From positions 1 through 38,983 of the forward strand of contig CAMCUQ010000013.1 in NCBI GenBank assembly GCA_945878775.1: a DNA stretch of 38,983 nucleotides. Reading direction: 5' to 3'. How positions within the stretch are numbered: position 1 is the stretch's first letter; every line of letters begins with the position of its first letter. Positions 30,793 through 38,282 of the stretch are shown one piece after another. This DNA comes from Chthonomonas calidirosea (GTDB lineage Bacteria; Armatimonadota; Chthonomonadetes; Chthonomonadales; Chthonomonadaceae). Below the pieces are notes generated by a model. The model was given only the letters and a program-made list of their open reading frames with translations, was not told the DNA's origin and searched no databases. A program made the translations under genes and the position numbers.

Positions 30793-31058
30793 TGCCGTCT
30801 CCTCCAAGGTTAGAGTTATTTGCGAGCGGGCGAATTGGCTGACTTGCAAACAAAATGGTTAGGGCATTCAGCCTTTATTGACCCAATGCCCCTTCAATCG
30901 GGTACAGTTCTTCTGACAAAGGAGGAACCAAACCCAATGGATTCTAACATACTTTCCAACTTTATACAGAGCAACTCTACTTTTTCATCGTTTATTGCGG
31001 TGCTACCGAACGGAGAGTGCCGATACTATAATTAAAAGTGCCGCTAAGGACGCTGATC

Positions 31059-32630
31059 ATGCTTTGTGAGTCTCATCTCCAGCACAATAATACCCTAGAA
31101 CCAAAGTCCCCTCCAAGACCAGATCGTATTGCCTTCTGGATGGGGGTGGCGACGCTGTGTTTGGTACTCATTACAGGTATTTTTCTGCATAGAACCGGAG
31201 TGGGAGGGTTGGACAACGACGCCTATAGCTACATTGGTGAGGCGCAGTGGGTTCTCCACAAGGGATTTACGGGTGAGGTGCGACCGCTCACTGGCAACGT
31301 TCCAAAACCTTTGCTTGTGCTGATCTACGGCGTATGTTGGCACATTGGTCAGCCCGGCGTGCTAATCACAATCCTTTGTGCTATGATTGCAGGCGCAGTT
31401 ATCTCACTTTTTGTACACATTGGGGCACTACTTTGCTCCCGCACAGCGGGAATTATTACGGCAATCCTTGGGTTGGTGGCATTCTCGACGCTAGAGGTGG
31501 CACTCACCGCAAACTCGGGACTGTTCCTCCTTCTATTCGCGCTTCTAGCACTGCATGAACTGCTTGCGCTTGAACCGGGCAGAAGGCGAGTGAGGCGGGT
31601 TTTGGTGGCACTCACCTTTGCTGGGTTATCGCGACCAGAGGGCTGGATTCTCTATTTACTTGCCACTCTCTTTTTACTTCGTAACGAGGTTCGTTCAGAG
31701 AAGGCAAGCAGAAGATACCTTGCGTTGCTTCTCCTCTGTGTGCCCTTTCTCTCTCCACTGCTGGATAGGCTTCTGTTTGGAGATTGGCTCTACGGTATTC
31801 ATTCATTCCAGTATTTCTCCACACGCTTTTTGGGGTTGATGGCACCGGCGTCCTGGCAAGGAGCGGATTGGGGGCGGTTTGGTGCGTCACTTCAGGGGAT
31901 GTTAGGAAACCCTATATCGACGTTCACACTGCTGTTTTTTGCATGCGTTGGAATCTGGTCGCTCTGGAAGAACTCACGCACTCGACTTGGTTTTTTACTG
32001 TTTCCCTTTAGTGCAATATTATTGTTTCATGCCCACACATTCCGTTACGGCTTTTTTGCGCCCCGATTTGTCGTCGTGCCTTGGGCAATATTGGTTTTGC
32101 TGAGCGGTGTCGGTTTGGCGGAGTTGGCAAAAGCACTTGCCATTTGGAGACACAAAACGCGCTCTTATCCCTTTGTTAAGCGACTGCTGCCAATGACTCT
32201 CTCGTTCGCGTTTTGCCTTTTAGGAGGGCTATGCACAATGGCGTTTTGGGCAAGGACAAGACGGGGTGTGGAGGTCATGCATATTTTCAATGCCTACACC
32301 ACAGAGATCGTCTTACACTGCAACGCCCCAAACCGTGATAACCTCCGTATTCTTGTCGATAATGCGTTCTACAACCCTGTACAGTTCCACCTCTCCAAGC
32401 CTCACACCGTTCTACATCGAACACTTGAAGAGTGGAATAGGGAGACCTCTCTTGACCAGTATGACATTATCTGTCCCGGAACAAGAAGCCCGCGTCTCGC
32501 CTCTCTCTTTGCCAAGATCGCACAAGAAGGATCACGTTGGCAAACCTACTCCTACTATCCCGCTCAACCACTCTACATCTTCGTCAAACGCTCCACTGCC
32601 TCCGCACATGTCGCTTTCACCAAAGAGTAA
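31059..32630 (+). CDS. Polytopic membrane protein, GT-C/ArnT-PMT-like glycosyltransferase candidate
   Basis: TGIFLHRTGVGGLDNDAYSYIGEAQWVL in the first loop, SRPEGWILYLLATLFLLR, many TM helices. Confidence 0.65.
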   Translation: MLCESHLQHNNTLEPKSPPRPDRIAFWMGVATLCLVLITGIFLHRTGVGGLDNDAYSYIGEAQWVLHKGFTGEVRPLTGNVPKPLLVLIYGVCWHIGQPGVLITILCAMIAGAVISLFVHIGALLCSRTAGIITAILGLVAFSTLEVALTANSGLFLLLFALLALHELLALEPGRRRVRRVLVALTFAGLSRPEGWILYLLATLFLLRNEVRSEKASRRYLALLLLCVPFLSPLLDRLLFGDWLYGIHSFQYFSTRFLGLMAPASWQGADWGRFGASLQGMLGNPISTFTLLFFACVGIWSLWKNSRTRLGFLLFPFSAILLFHAHTFRYGFFAPRFVVVPWAILVLLSGVGLAELAKALAIWRHKTRSYPFVKRLLPMTLSFAFCLLGGLCTMAFWARTRRGVEVMHIFNAYTTEIVLHCNAPNRDNLRILVDNAFYNPVQFHLSKPHTVLHRTLEEWNRETSLDQYDIICPGTRSPRLASLFAKIAQEGSRWQTYSYYPAQPLYIFVKRSTASAHVAFTKE

Positions 32631-32737: not shown

Positions 32738-32766
32738 TTGCAAAAATATGAATGGTTTGTTATACT
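32738..32766 (+). promoter_or_regulatory. Sigma70-like promoter TTGCAA-N17-TATACT for the three-gene cassette
   Basis: -35-like at 32738-32743, -10-like at 32761-32766, optimal 17-bp spacing, ~75 nt before ATG 32847. Confidence 0.5.
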
Positions 32767-32846
32767 ATGTTCTACTTATGAGTAGTGTTATGCAGGATAG
32801 TTATTTTTCCTAATGAACTGTCTAACACGCTAGAGATGAGAGCATT

Positions 32847-34553
32847 ATGTCTACCTTACAGAACTCGCAGTCCGCTCGACTTAGCCCCGCATTCGATCCT
32901 ATCCGTCGGCAATATCTCTGTAGTTTTGCCCGTTGGATGCTCTTGTTTGCTTTGGTGTTAGGGGTCACGGGAGGGGTGGGTAGTGTGCGTATCGATCTCC
33001 AAGGCGTCGTTCATTACGAGCGTTCCTACTATCTCCTAGAGCACTGTCTCGCGGCATTTGTCTCTGCGGTGCTTGTTGTGGGTGGAATTCGGGTTCTCAT
33101 TTTCCCACTGCTGGAGATTTGGTATGATGCCACAGATGCCATACGCGACTGGATGGCGATAGGGATCGTGACAGGCTTATGTTATGGTGGGCTCATCTAT
33201 GCCTCGTTGACAATGGGGCGTCCCGGAGCCATCGATTTTGAAAGCTGGATGCACGAAAGGTTTGGGCTTGCCTGCTTTGCGTCTTTTGTGGGCATACTTC
33301 TCGCCCAGTATCGTGCTATTGCACCAGAGGGGCTACGTAGCCGAGGTTACGCTGCCCCTTTTTTGGTGTTACTTCAAGTGGTACTCATGGGGTGGAGCTT
33401 TTGGTACACGACTTGGGGGGTTCGGAATCTGCTCTTAGACCCTAGTGCGAGGCAAGTATGCCTTATCACTTGCATACTGGCTCTGTTTGTTGGTCTCTCT
33501 ATTCTTTTTGTCGCATACTCTCAAGAGAAAGACCTCTATCATGCTCAACGCGAGGGAAAGCCAGAGAGCGGAATAAGTAGCATCGATATGGTGATGCAAG
33601 TGACCATCATTGGAGGGAGGCACTCAGGGAAAACCTGTTGTTTGGCGGGGGCATACCAAGAATCGGTCGACGCTATCGCCTTTCCCAATATTCAGATCGA
33701 ATCGATGCTCGCTAGCGGAGTTCTGGGAGAGGCTGCAAGCCCACTCAAGACCCTTAAAGAGCTAGCAGACCAGATTTATACACCAAACGTGACGCCTAAT
33801 CTTCCTCCCGGAAGCGCTTCTTGTTCGCACCATGCATTCCGTCTGAAATATCGGAATACACCTGTTGCTGAGTTCAAGATATTGGACTATCCTGGCGAGA
33901 TCATTCGCGGGAATTGGCATGATCCCAAGGACATTGAAGACTTTAATAATCGTGTGCAGTATACCGATCTCCTGCTTCTTGTGGTGGATATGTCTGCGCT
34001 ACGGTTGCGGGAAGGGGCAAGCGATGCCAAGGAGATCATTACAAAATACCGGAACTATATGCAACAGATCGCCTTCAGGAATGGTAGCAGACGGATCGTC
34101 CCCGTCGCCTTAGTTTTGACGAAGGCAGATGAGTTTCGTGATGGCGAAGGGTTGGACACCGCTGCTATTGAGAGCACGCTACAGCTTTATGGCTTTGACC
34201 AGTTAGAAGAGTTATGGAAATCACTTGCCTATGAACCAGAGGGACCCAAATACTTCCAGTTTTCAACTTGGTACTCCTCCGCATTCACAGAGACGGAGCC
34301 TCGAACAATAAGGAGCGACGGAAAAGACCAGACGCTCTACTATCCGCTCTCAGGACTGAAGCCTACCAACTGCCTTGCGCCTATTTTCTGGCTCTGCTCT
34401 CAGGGGATGCGGTGGAACTATACGGTAGTAGGAAACCTTTGGGGCTGGATTTGGGGAGGCTCGAAGACAGACCGAGAGTTTCGTAAAGCGATGCTCTATA
34501 TGGAACAACGTGCCCAGAGGCATCGTGAAAGAGGTCTCTCATGGAAAAACTAA
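32847..34553 (+). CDS. Membrane-anchored P-loop GTPase (about six TM helices + TRAFAC-like GTPase domain)
   Basis: G1 GGRHSGKT (33612-33635), G3 DYPGE (33885-33899), G4 TKAD (34119-34130); hydrophobic segments through the N-terminal ~230 aa. Confidence 0.8.
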   Translation: MSTLQNSQSARLSPAFDPIRRQYLCSFARWMLLFALVLGVTGGVGSVRIDLQGVVHYERSYYLLEHCLAAFVSAVLVVGGIRVLIFPLLEIWYDATDAIRDWMAIGIVTGLCYGGLIYASLTMGRPGAIDFESWMHERFGLACFASFVGILLAQYRAIAPEGLRSRGYAAPFLVLLQVVLMGWSFWYTTWGVRNLLLDPSARQVCLITCILALFVGLSILFVAYSQEKDLYHAQREGKPESGISSIDMVMQVTIIGGRHSGKTCCLAGAYQESVDAIAFPNIQIESMLASGVLGEAASPLKTLKELADQIYTPNVTPNLPPGSASCSHHAFRLKYRNTPVAEFKILDYPGEIIRGNWHDPKDIEDFNNRVQYTDLLLLVVDMSALRLREGASDAKEIITKYRNYMQQIAFRNGSRRIVPVALVLTKADEFRDGEGLDTAAIESTLQLYGFDQLEELWKSLAYEPEGPKYFQFSTWYSSAFTETEPRTIRSDGKDQTLYYPLSGLKPTNCLAPIFWLCSQGMRWNYTVVGNLWGWIWGGSKTDREFRKAMLYMEQRAQRHRERGLSWKN

Positions 34554-36076
34554 CCTCCCCAAGTACGAAGTATGTGCTCCATTGGGCAGTATTTCAGCCA
34601 AATTGTGAGAAAGATAACCATTATGATCTCATAAGACCCCCTAATTGCTCTGGAACATTGATTACAGGAGTAAATCGTGTGAAGCGGCTGATCCATGAGG
34701 CTTCACTTCCTGATAGCCCTAAGACATACCTTGTTTGGTTTGATTATTCCTCCGACACCTATGTCCTTGCCCTTGTCTCACCTCATACAATAGCAGGGCG
34801 ACAACGTATCGAGAAGCGGTATGTATATTTGTTTTTGCCGAGGAAAATTATGAACGGCATTCTTGCTTTCAATCCATTAAATGCGGTGAAGTGGGGCTGG
34901 CTAGAGCAAGTAATCGAGTGCTATCATCGTGACCCAATGTATCACTCCATGAGTGTAGAGGTTACTAGTGGAATGCACTCACAACGAGAATCCGGTTACT
35001 CAGCCGACACAGATGCTGTTACTCCAGAGCCGGTTCAGGAGTGGAATGACACAAATCGCGAAAACCTCTTGGATTATGTGGAGGCGCAGGCACGGCTACA
35101 ACGGACGGTTACCTTTGCAACGTGGCTTCCCTCTTTGAAGTCTCCACCAAATGATCTCTTCTCTGTTATTCTCTCCCCCAAGACACCAGAACTGCCTACT
35201 AAATCAGACGCTCAAAACAGTGATGCTACGGCTTTAGCACTCAGCCTCGTCAATGATGTTGCCGGATTGACCTCCAGTCTTAAAGCACAAGCCAAGGAAC
35301 TACAGGCTGTACGAAGACAGGCAAGTCGACTCCACAAAACACTGAAGCGTACCACCACGTGGGAGCTAGATTCCCCCAGAACGTTCCAGATGAAGGAGGA
35401 TGCGCAAAAAGTACAGGTGAGCTTAGGTGAAGTTCTGAAGGCTCTGAGTGATGTGAACATTCTGACCTCACTTCAAGAGAATGCAACACGAATGTCGGAC
35501 GCGATTGTACAACTAGAAAAGCCTGCCAAGGCAGACCCTCTTGAACCAGACAAACCCCCTAGAATGAGGCGGTTCACTGTTCCACGAGAGAAAGTGAAAC
35601 GCATTCTTACCTATTCTGGCGTCATTGCAGGCATTATTGTGATATGTCTTTTGGCGTTCCTGGACAACACGAACCAGGCTACCACAGAGTTTGGTGATTC
35701 CGATCCTATTGCTGCAATTTTGCACCAGTCGGGCGCGATTGAAGCGGAAATTAAAGCCCAAATGGTTAATCGCGTGGCGAAACTATGGAAGAAGGAATCT
35801 CTATCCACTAATTCGCTTAGTGTGAGGCAGACGACTCTACAACGTATGGCAGTGCATGATGTGAGGCTGAAGTGTATCGAACAAAATGTATTACCCAAAG
35901 AGCAGGTCGATGCGGTGTTCGAGTGGAAGGAAAATGCTAACAAGCCGGACATGGGGTATCCAGACGTTTCGAAGCGTTTGAAATTAGTTGAGCGTGTCTA
36001 TGAGCTTGGTGCTACTGAACTGGGGAGATGGGGAAAGAAACAGAAAAATCGGGAGGCAGCAAATAAGGATGAATAG
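34541..36076 (+). CDS. GTPase-associated protein of unknown family: N-terminal globular domain, coiled-coil region, single TM, ~130-aa C-terminal tail
   Basis: Overlaps the GTPase gene by 13 nt; AGAGG before ATG; TM segment RILTYSGVIAGIIVICLLAFLD preceded by basic residues. Confidence 0.75.
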   Translation: MEKLTSPSTKYVLHWAVFQPNCEKDNHYDLIRPPNCSGTLITGVNRVKRLIHEASLPDSPKTYLVWFDYSSDTYVLALVSPHTIAGRQRIEKRYVYLFLPRKIMNGILAFNPLNAVKWGWLEQVIECYHRDPMYHSMSVEVTSGMHSQRESGYSADTDAVTPEPVQEWNDTNRENLLDYVEAQARLQRTVTFATWLPSLKSPPNDLFSVILSPKTPELPTKSDAQNSDATALALSLVNDVAGLTSSLKAQAKELQAVRRQASRLHKTLKRTTTWELDSPRTFQMKEDAQKVQVSLGEVLKALSDVNILTSLQENATRMSDAIVQLEKPAKADPLEPDKPPRMRRFTVPREKVKRILTYSGVIAGIIVICLLAFLDNTNQATTEFGDSDPIAAILHQSGAIEAEIKAQMVNRVAKLWKKESLSTNSLSVRQTTLQRMAVHDVRLKCIEQNVLPKEQVDAVFEWKENANKPDMGYPDVSKRLKLVERVYELGATELGRWGKKQKNREAANKDE

Positions 36077-37196
36077 CAAGAGAATACTAAAGCTGTGGCT
36101 TGCAGTGTTGCCGATAGTTCTTAGTGCCGTAGCCGTAGCATACAACGGGAACACTTCCTACCAATCCTACTACCATCGCTATCTGGAGATCATTCCTCAA
36201 CACCTTGATAACAAGGGCAGAAATGGAGGGATGCAACGAAGCACCGTCAATGTCGCCTTTGTGAAAAATCAAAAAAGCACCCCTGAGTTAATCGCTCTTG
36301 GCGCGTCTCCATCGCTTCAGCAAGTCGAGGCAGGAGAGAAGGCATCTCCACAGGGAGACTTTACGGATATTGATATTCCTATGGAGAAAGTAGTGCATCG
36401 TGTTGATATTGTCTACGGTGGAGGGTGGGTGGCAGTCGCAAACGCTTTTGCGGGCGGTGATAAAATTAGACTCTATATGCGGGGTGCAGACAGTACTAGG
36501 TTCATTCCGAAAGGAGAGATTTCCCTCAAGGCGCAAGCGGTGTCATTGCGGTTTCATTGGTACAAAACCAACTGGGAACTCCTCGTAGGCACTAGCAATA
36601 ATGAGGTGTTCGCATACTCCATTATCAACGGTGTGCCGGTATTTCGTACCTTCCGAAAGCTACAAAGCTCCCCATCTGTGCTGACGTGTACCCAAGATAA
36701 CGCTTGGCTCATCGCAGGTTCCACAAATATTGAACTTGTCCCCATGGACGATTGGCAAAAGTCATACCCGATAGGATTGCCCTCTCCTGCAAGCGCGATT
36801 ACGGTTATAGACGACAGCCATTTTGTGGTGGGTCTTCTGAAAAACCTAGATGTTCTTGTGTTCTCAACAGGCATTCCAACACGACCTCCCATTCGACTCA
36901 CAGGTAATCCTGCCCGAGTCAATTGTTTGGTGTTTTGCAAAGGAACCAATTGCCTGATAGCAGGAGATGAGAGTGGGAACATGACCCTTTGGAAGTGGCA
37001 AAAAGAGGGACGTTTCAAGGTAGATGCGGTACAGGTAATAAAGGCGAAGCAACAGCCAGATGAGGGGCATGTGAATGGTATTGGGGCAATGGCGTTGAGT
37101 CTTGACCAAGAGCAGAAGTGGCTCGCCTCTGTGGGCATCCGTGGCGCACTCTATCTTTGGAATACGGAGAGCCTTTTGAGAGGGGCAAGGTTGTAG
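36069..37196 (+). CDS. N-terminally anchored/exported WD40-like beta-propeller protein
   Basis: MNSKRILKLWLAVLPIVLSAVAVAY signal-anchor; repeated blades, e.g. NCLIAGDESGNMTLWKWQ and WLASVGIRGALYLWNTE; 8-nt overlap with the preceding gene. Confidence 0.72.
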   Translation: MNSKRILKLWLAVLPIVLSAVAVAYNGNTSYQSYYHRYLEIIPQHLDNKGRNGGMQRSTVNVAFVKNQKSTPELIALGASPSLQQVEAGEKASPQGDFTDIDIPMEKVVHRVDIVYGGGWVAVANAFAGGDKIRLYMRGADSTRFIPKGEISLKAQAVSLRFHWYKTNWELLVGTSNNEVFAYSIINGVPVFRTFRKLQSSPSVLTCTQDNAWLIAGSTNIELVPMDDWQKSYPIGLPSPASAITVIDDSHFVVGLLKNLDVLVFSTGIPTRPPIRLTGNPARVNCLVFCKGTNCLIAGDESGNMTLWKWQKEGRFKVDAVQVIKAKQQPDEGHVNGIGAMALSLDQEQKWLASVGIRGALYLWNTESLLRGARL

Positions 37197-37350
37197 TGGT
37201 GAGGTATTTTCGTCACAGGGAGGTTTTTGCACGGCTCCTGTAGAATCTGTTGCTTTAGAAGGGGATACATCCTTGCAAACCGACGATAGCCTTTTTGATT
37301 GCCCACCGGAAGCCAGACCACTCCGCCCGAAGCCAAAGATAAGGGTAGGG

Positions 37351-37497
37351 ATGCGATGTGCAAAGTGTGAAAGCGAAGCCCTTGATGCGCTTCCCTATTT
37401 CTCTGTCGGCAGTGGAACTGCGGCGCGTGGTGTTGCCGATGATGTACTGTGCCGCCGGTGTGGACACACTGCTCCACCCGCGATGCGATCCCTATAG
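37351..37497 (+). CDS. Small zinc-ribbon protein (CxxC...CxxC)
   Basis: MRCAKCESEALDALPYFSVGSGTAARGVADDVLCRRCGHTAPP; AGGG upstream of ATG 37351 (longer TTG start at 37273 possible). Confidence 0.5.
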   Translation: MRCAKCESEALDALPYFSVGSGTAARGVADDVLCRRCGHTAPPAMRSL

Positions 37498-37526: not shown

Positions 37527-38282
37527 ATGTTATCTGTCATGGGTTTGGTTTTGACCCTCGCCTTGCTAGGGACACCTGCAAATCAACAAGGGGTGCCTCC
37601 TGCTCAGGAGAGCATTCGGTTTGAAAAGGAGATCGTAAAAAAGATAAAGGTAGAGGGCAACTTTTTGCTTTATCTTCCCAAAGAATATGCCAAGAAGGGG
37701 CGCGAGCATTTCCCGCTGATCATTTTCCTGCATGGCTCTGGTGAACGTGGTAGCGATCTGGAATTGGTGAAGAAGCATGGACCTCCAAAACTGGTAGAAG
37801 CGGGCAAAGACTTTCCGTTTATTATATGTTCGCCTCAATGCCCAGAAGGGCAGGGGTGGTCGCTTGACATGCTTAATGGAATGCTAGATTATCTTTTGAA
37901 GAAGTATCGTGTAAATGCGGATCGCGTCTACCTTACCGGGTTGAGCATGGGAGGCTACGGAAGTTGGGCTTGGGTGGCACAAAACCCAGAACGCTTTGCC
38001 GCCGTTGCGCCGATATGCGGTGGTGGAGACCCCAAAACGGTAGGGAGTTTCAAGAAAATACCATTATGGGCATTCCATGGTATGAAGGACGGTGCTGTCC
38101 CTGTAGAGAGATCGATTCAGATGATCGACGCACTTAAAGCTGTGGGTGCGTCACCTAAACTAACTCTCTATCCCGAAGCAGGGCACGATTCGTGGACAGA
38201 GTCCTACAACAATCCAGAACTGTATGAGTGGTTTTTGAAACAGGTTCGTCCAAAGCCCATAGAGGGAACCGAACGACCCTAA
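37527..38282 (+). CDS. Secreted alpha/beta hydrolase (dienelactone hydrolase/PHB depolymerase-like esterase)
   Basis: PLIIFLHGSGERGSDLE, VYLTGLSMGGYGSWAWVAQNPERFAAVAPICGG, FHGMKDGAVPVERS, GHDSW catalytic motifs; AAAGGAGAAGCG RBS. Confidence 0.9.
   Translation: MLSVMGLVLTLALLGTPANQQGVPPAQESIRFEKEIVKKIKVEGNFLLYLPKEYAKKGREHFPLIIFLHGSGERGSDLELVKKHGPPKLVEAGKDFPFIICSPQCPEGQGWSLDMLNGMLDYLLKKYRVNADRVYLTGLSMGGYGSWAWVAQNPERFAAVAPICGGGDPKTVGSFKKIPLWAFHGMKDGAVPVERSIQMIDALKAVGASPKLTLYPEAGHDSWTESYNNPELYEWFLKQVRPKPIEGTERP

Follow-up and report, generated by a model that had tools for sequence, protein, structure and literature searches.

A putative membrane-embedded DO-GTPase system with a candidate GAP1-N2-like partner in Chthonomonas calidirosea and other Armatimonadota

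Results

In the window analysed here, a 38,983-nucleotide contig of Chthonomonas calidirosea, two neighbouring genes form a real conserved unit that recurs more than chance would allow: gene 1, which its sequence clearly places among the DO-GTPases, on a base of six transmembrane (TM) segments, and gene 2, probably its membrane-anchored partner, whose family carries an N-terminal domain that is probably a distant likeness of GAP1-N2. In independent profile searches of 292 Armatimonadota genomes, gene 1 and gene 2 were recovered from the identical seven, namely the window genome together with three further members of its genus (all four searched genomes of this genus carry the cassette) and three genomes of another family, and the two genes were adjacent in all seven, with gene starts in the cassettes that overlap or lie close together. 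A WD40-type propeller gene (gene 3 in the window) is found downstream in five of the seven (window, G001, G002, G003 and G114), which represent the genus of the window and a single other genus. The remaining two, G042 and G102, hold genes 1 and 2 only, and the propeller is therefore not core there. The co-localisation that the earlier note had expected of a three-gene cassette was thus found for genes 1 and 2 in every carrier, and for the propeller in these five.

When bacteria and archaea were scanned with two motifs, each species being represented by one genome, four loci were obtained (L022-L025), of which L023, L024 and L025 are titled Armatimonadota or Chthonomonas and L022 comes from bacterium isolate AM_0876. 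Since only four loci were returned and at least three of them have these titles, the gene 1-gene 2 family is suggested to be lineage-specific, within the limits of a scan with two motifs. None of the plasmids, phages or viral contigs searched contained a relative of gene 1, and a mobile-element origin was rejected on this ground. At the G002 locus (L017 4996-8476), an assembly gap (Ns) falls within gene 2, and the coding sequence of gene 1 is divided over two frames, which may reflect either an assembly error or a broken gene.

The three open reading frames (ORFs) of the window lie on one strand and overlap by 13 nt and 8 nt (Table 1), as the earlier note had claimed. For gene 3, the ATG at 36069 (375 aa) is most likely the start and is preferred over a longer TTG frame from 35988. 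The promoter that the note had called good is present as a sequence, but its quality did not hold up: one match of the TTGCAA-N17-TATACT type was observed in 5 kb against 5.6 expected from shuffled sequence, so that the match carries no weight and was rejected as evidence for the cassette. At 37273-37497 (+) there is also a 74-aa zinc-ribbon-like ORF (CxxC...CxxC) that was absent from the ORF list. Eight further genomes of the family have it at 43-54% conservation, on a contig other than that of the cassette or in a genome that lacks the cassette, and it is probably a real small gene outside the cassette.

Table 1 Features of the cassette and its surroundings. Coordinates refer to the window unless a locus is named.
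Feature	Coordinates	Strand	Description
GT-C-like (PMT_2-like) polytopic gene	31038..32630	+	Upstream; possible associated gene, outside the core
Promoter-like TTGCAA-N17-TATACT	32738..32766	+	80 nt 5' of gene 1
Gene 1	32847..34553	+	568 aa; six predicted N-terminal TM segments, then DO-GTPase domain
DO-GTPase2 domain, gene 1	33600..34211	+	G1 GGRHSGKT, G3 LDYPGE, G4 TKAD
Gene 2	34541..36076	+	511 aa; N-domain, helical/coiled-coil region, one TM, predicted periplasmic helical tail
Candidate GAP1-N2-like N-terminal domain, gene 2	34568..34930	+	Residues about 10-130
Gene 3	36069..37196	+	375 aa; signal/anchor segment, short helix, predicted WD40 beta-propeller
g2b	L018 5961-6674, L017 3967-4686	-	Homology to gene 2 tail

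Six hydrophobic segments were found in gene 1 (about residues 31-49, 68-86, 103-121, 141-159, 167-188 and 204-222), the single sequence and the average of six homologues being in agreement, and these are followed by a DO-GTPase domain (about residues 250-510) with a conserved C-terminal 'P..C..P..W' block. The Pfam DO-GTPase2 model (PF19993) matched gene 1 at E 3.7e-10 with 40.3 bits, which exceeds the gathering score of 27, and all six members of the gene 1 alignment matched this model at E 1 or better. The P-loop (GxxxxGK[ST]), DxxG and [NT]KxD motifs are kept in the relatives with one exception, the glutamate after DxxG (Walker B), which is described as typical of DO-GTPases; the window has it (LDYPGE), and the six relatives show G, K or S at this position. 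With zinc-ribbon DO-GTPases from elsewhere in the phylum, the G domain aligned over 253 columns including the C-terminal block (hhalign, 90%), and two of the aligned Armatimonadota proteins sit near GAP1-N2 genes. Taken together, the PF19993 match, the motifs and this alignment make the family membership of gene 1 clear, and they agree with the polytopic N-terminus and GTPase domain previously read from it; its distinguishing feature is the TM base in the place where a zinc ribbon would be. Comparison with PDB sequence profiles gave nothing convincing for gene 1, and a FastTree phylogeny of the G domains, which placed the window GTPase beside a long zinc-ribbon branch, was set aside as probable long-branch attraction. 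At the threshold used, the DO-GTPase2 model matched a single protein each in G003 and in the window genome (65% complete) and none in G001 or G002, and no second, paralogous GTPase was found with it in these four genomes.

Gene 3 is, judging by its homologues and its predicted model, a WD40 propeller, with a hydrophobic signal or anchor segment (residues 6-24) and a short helix ahead of the propeller itself (about 105-370). The WD40 match falls below the cut-off in the window protein, while its counterparts reach 8.6e-17 (G001) and 1.5e-74 (G114), and the predicted model (mean pLDDT 55, moderate confidence) had WD40-type propellers as its best PDB matches. Of the "anchored propeller" described earlier, the propeller is thus retained and the anchor is doubtful, as the N-terminus has an AVA-YN site and may just as well be a signal peptide that is cleaved off. 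The propeller is probably exported.

In three genomes of the genus (window, G001 and G002), the gene immediately 5' of gene 1 and on its strand is GT-C-like (30-35% identical), and SelB follows the cassette in G001 and G002 but is found on the opposite side of it in the window. SelB thus switches sides and the GT-C gene stays upstream, so that the GT gene and the cassette have been kept together through a rearrangement. This arrangement is what one would look for if the cassette were an envelope-maintenance or surface-glycan module, in which the GTPase would regulate the neighbouring GT-C-like protein and the propeller would act as a periplasmic scaffold, and such a module would also suit the lack of a recognised toxin-like or nuclease domain in the scanned cassette proteins, the occurrence of the cassette in every searched genome of the genus and the lack of a copy in plasmids, phages and viral contigs. 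We nevertheless consider it unlikely, given that GT-C genes are common, that the GT-C gene near the cassette in G042 and G102 is convergent and has no detectable relation to that of the window by blastp, and that none was identified among the searched neighbours of the G114 cassette.

Secreted-looking alpha/beta hydrolases were observed in the window (37527-38282) and at L019 11539-12405 (G102/G042), and these are only 24% identical. The former was rejected as an effector as it lies downstream of the cassette in the window only; the distant one is upstream of gene 1 in G042 and G102, and none adjoins the cassette in G001 or G002. That the cassette has such neighbours in the window, G102 and G042 is probably a coincidence.

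Gene 1 of the window shares 27.5% identity with that of G001, compared with 65.6% for SelB and 79% for the neighbouring peptidase, and over the same-genus genomes the corresponding values are 27-33%, 65-66% and 79% (adjacent peptidase). Because the wider background of reciprocal hits and genome-wide identities is confounded by paralogues, a statement on fast evolution of gene 1 applies to the comparison with these few neighbours. The low identity, together with the patchy occurrence of the cassette (7/292 genomes), would be compatible with an anti-invader conflict system in which the triggered GTPase would cause the six-TM base of gene 1 to permeabilise the membrane, and DO-GTPase systems are predicted to be conflict systems in the portion of the GTPase survey on which we draw (Kaur, Burroughs, Iyer and Aravind 2020, eLife 9:e52696, PMC7159879), where this function is likewise a prediction. 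However, searches of PADLOC-DB and NCBIfam returned no matches, a scan of cassette proteins and immediate neighbours revealed no recognisable effector, tubulin, HSP70 or kinase, and there was no sign of mobility. Fast change would also suit a surface-facing module of any kind or a replacement by some distant copy, and we regard a conflict role of this kind as distinctly improbable.

Gene 2 consists of an N-domain (about residues 10-130), a helical/coiled-coil region (about 220-330), one TM (355-373) and a helical tail after the TM, which agrees with the single TM and coiled coil of the earlier description. No relevant Pfam model matched any of the seven family members even at E 5, the GAP1-N2 model included, and PDB sequence profiles gave nothing convincing. 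For a more sensitive comparison at the profile level, GAP1-N2 proteins were taken from seven other Armatimonadota genomes and six were aligned. Against this profile, the N-domain of the gene 2 family scored 38.9 (hhalign probability 86%), compared with a mean of 10.6 (sd 2.0, maximum 18.3) for 150 column shuffles, 10.9 for the reversed profile and a highest value of 16.3 among unrelated natural profiles. The best profile pair aligned 51 columns, and non-overlapping subsets of the family reproduced the same register, one of them across 100 columns. The window's gene 2 alone gave no signal, and the match is thus to be read at the family level only. In the predicted model, the N-domain (pLDDT mostly 52-78; confidence is low outside it) is ordered strand-strand-helix-strand-strand-strand-helix (E-E-H-E-E-E-H).

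One could take gene 2 instead for a new type of DO-GTPase partner, unrelated to GAP1, with the profile match being a short convergence of beta-strands, as would be suggested by the lack of a Pfam match, by the 51 columns of the best pair and by GAP1-M and GAP1-C, which were not found in the rest of gene 2 when it was compared with canonical GAP1 and Pfam. We give this little credence: the score lies far outside both the shuffled and the natural controls, independent subsets agree in register, the order of strands and helices is compatible with GAP1-N2, and the genomic position is the same. A distant GAP1-N2-like domain therefore remains our preferred reading of the family. Only G001 and G002 have a separate single-TM gene between genes 2 and 3 (g2b, Table 1); it is homologous to the gene 2 tail, and a separate anchored copy of this sort would be expected if the tail is a modular exterior domain. 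Finally, WD40 and GTPase genes are common, but a chance adjacency of three unrelated genes has a negligible probability and is refuted for genes 1 and 2 by their exact co-occurrence and adjacency in seven genomes of two families, with starts overlapping or close.

Discussion

The earlier note had suspected a relation to the GTPase-centred systems described by the Aravind group, and this suspicion is borne out by a DO-GTPase in gene 1 and a probable GAP1-N2-like N-domain in the gene 2 family. Such systems are defined by a DO-GTPase plus GAP1, with the GAP1 gene directly downstream of the DO-GTPase gene, and their GAP1-N2 types include GTPases anchored in the membrane and GAP1 proteins with C-terminal TMs, along with FNIII, tubulin, HSP70 or kinase partners, as far as the portion of PMC7159879 used here describes them. 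The cassette has the same order, a DO-GTPase gene and then a partner gene with a probable GAP1-N2-like N-domain (at the family level), and it shares with the GAP1-N2 types of that source a TM-bearing GTPase, a partner with a C-terminal TM and extracellular partner domains, the exterior location being predicted. It differs in having a single GTPase with six N-terminal TMs, as opposed to the zinc ribbons, or the four N-terminal plus one C-terminal TMs, described there. Two paralogous GTPases occur in 38% of the GAP1-N2-type systems covered and are not strictly required. Also in contrast to these types, no GAP1-M/C, FNIII, tubulin, HSP70, kinase, SLATT or zinc-ribbon GTPase was recognised in the cassette; FNIII had no match among the scanned proteins, gene 3 being the WD40 propeller. 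Such a propeller is an addition, none being listed for the GTPase systems in the portion of PMC7159879 considered, which places propellers in vWA-MoxR systems. The ternary vWA-MoxR systems with a beta-propeller (subsystem 4 of that source) resemble the cassette in combining a propeller and a membrane-spanning component in a conserved gene set, but their core, as described there, is a MoxR AAA+ protein and a vWA protein (neither recognised in the cassette) with the propeller fused to vWA, whereas the propeller of the cassette is separate and probably exported.

Closer to hand, the Armatimonadota loci L050 and L053, with a zinc-ribbon DO-GTPase and GAP1-N2, have a homologous G domain and a C-terminal 'P...PL.W' block, but their GTPase has no TM base and their GAP1 matches PF20013 directly, and the cassette differs in both respects. 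Another zinc-ribbon DO-GTPase, found in G123, does have TMs, at its C-terminus. As the cassette appears to have the core logic of the GAP1-N2 type but not several of its defining partners, we file it, on present sequence comparisons, as a variant that would work like the GAP1-N2 type, short of full membership.

With a little better than even confidence, we propose that the cassette is a divergent, minimal, membrane-embedded DO-GTPase system of the GAP1-N2 type with a relay across the envelope. The GTPase and the gene 2 N-domain would lie together at the cytoplasmic face, with the propeller and the tail of gene 2 on the periplasmic side, an envelope-spanning topology that is plausible and is drawn solely from hydropathy and charge. 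Binding of a ligand, or a change in the state of the envelope, would be sensed at the propeller and the gene 2 tail, and gene 2 would carry the signal via its single TM and coiled coil to its GAP1-N2-like domain, and this domain would determine which nucleotide state the GTPase takes. As output, there may be a change in the six-TM base itself or in a factor encoded elsewhere. A bolder version, namely that this is a new class of transmembrane G-protein signalling, running from an exported WD40 propeller through a single-TM adaptor to a cytosolic GTPase with the six-TM base as output, is tentative and would more often be expected to fail than to hold.

DO-GTPase systems are known from genome predictions, and our literature search found the family otherwise mentioned in passing, with no experiment. 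Most of these systems carry many parts, whereas the version described here consists of a two-gene core plus an optional propeller, and is therefore small enough to reconstitute. Reconstitution would make testable both the GAP1-type regulation of DO-GTPases and the passage of signals across the envelope to them.
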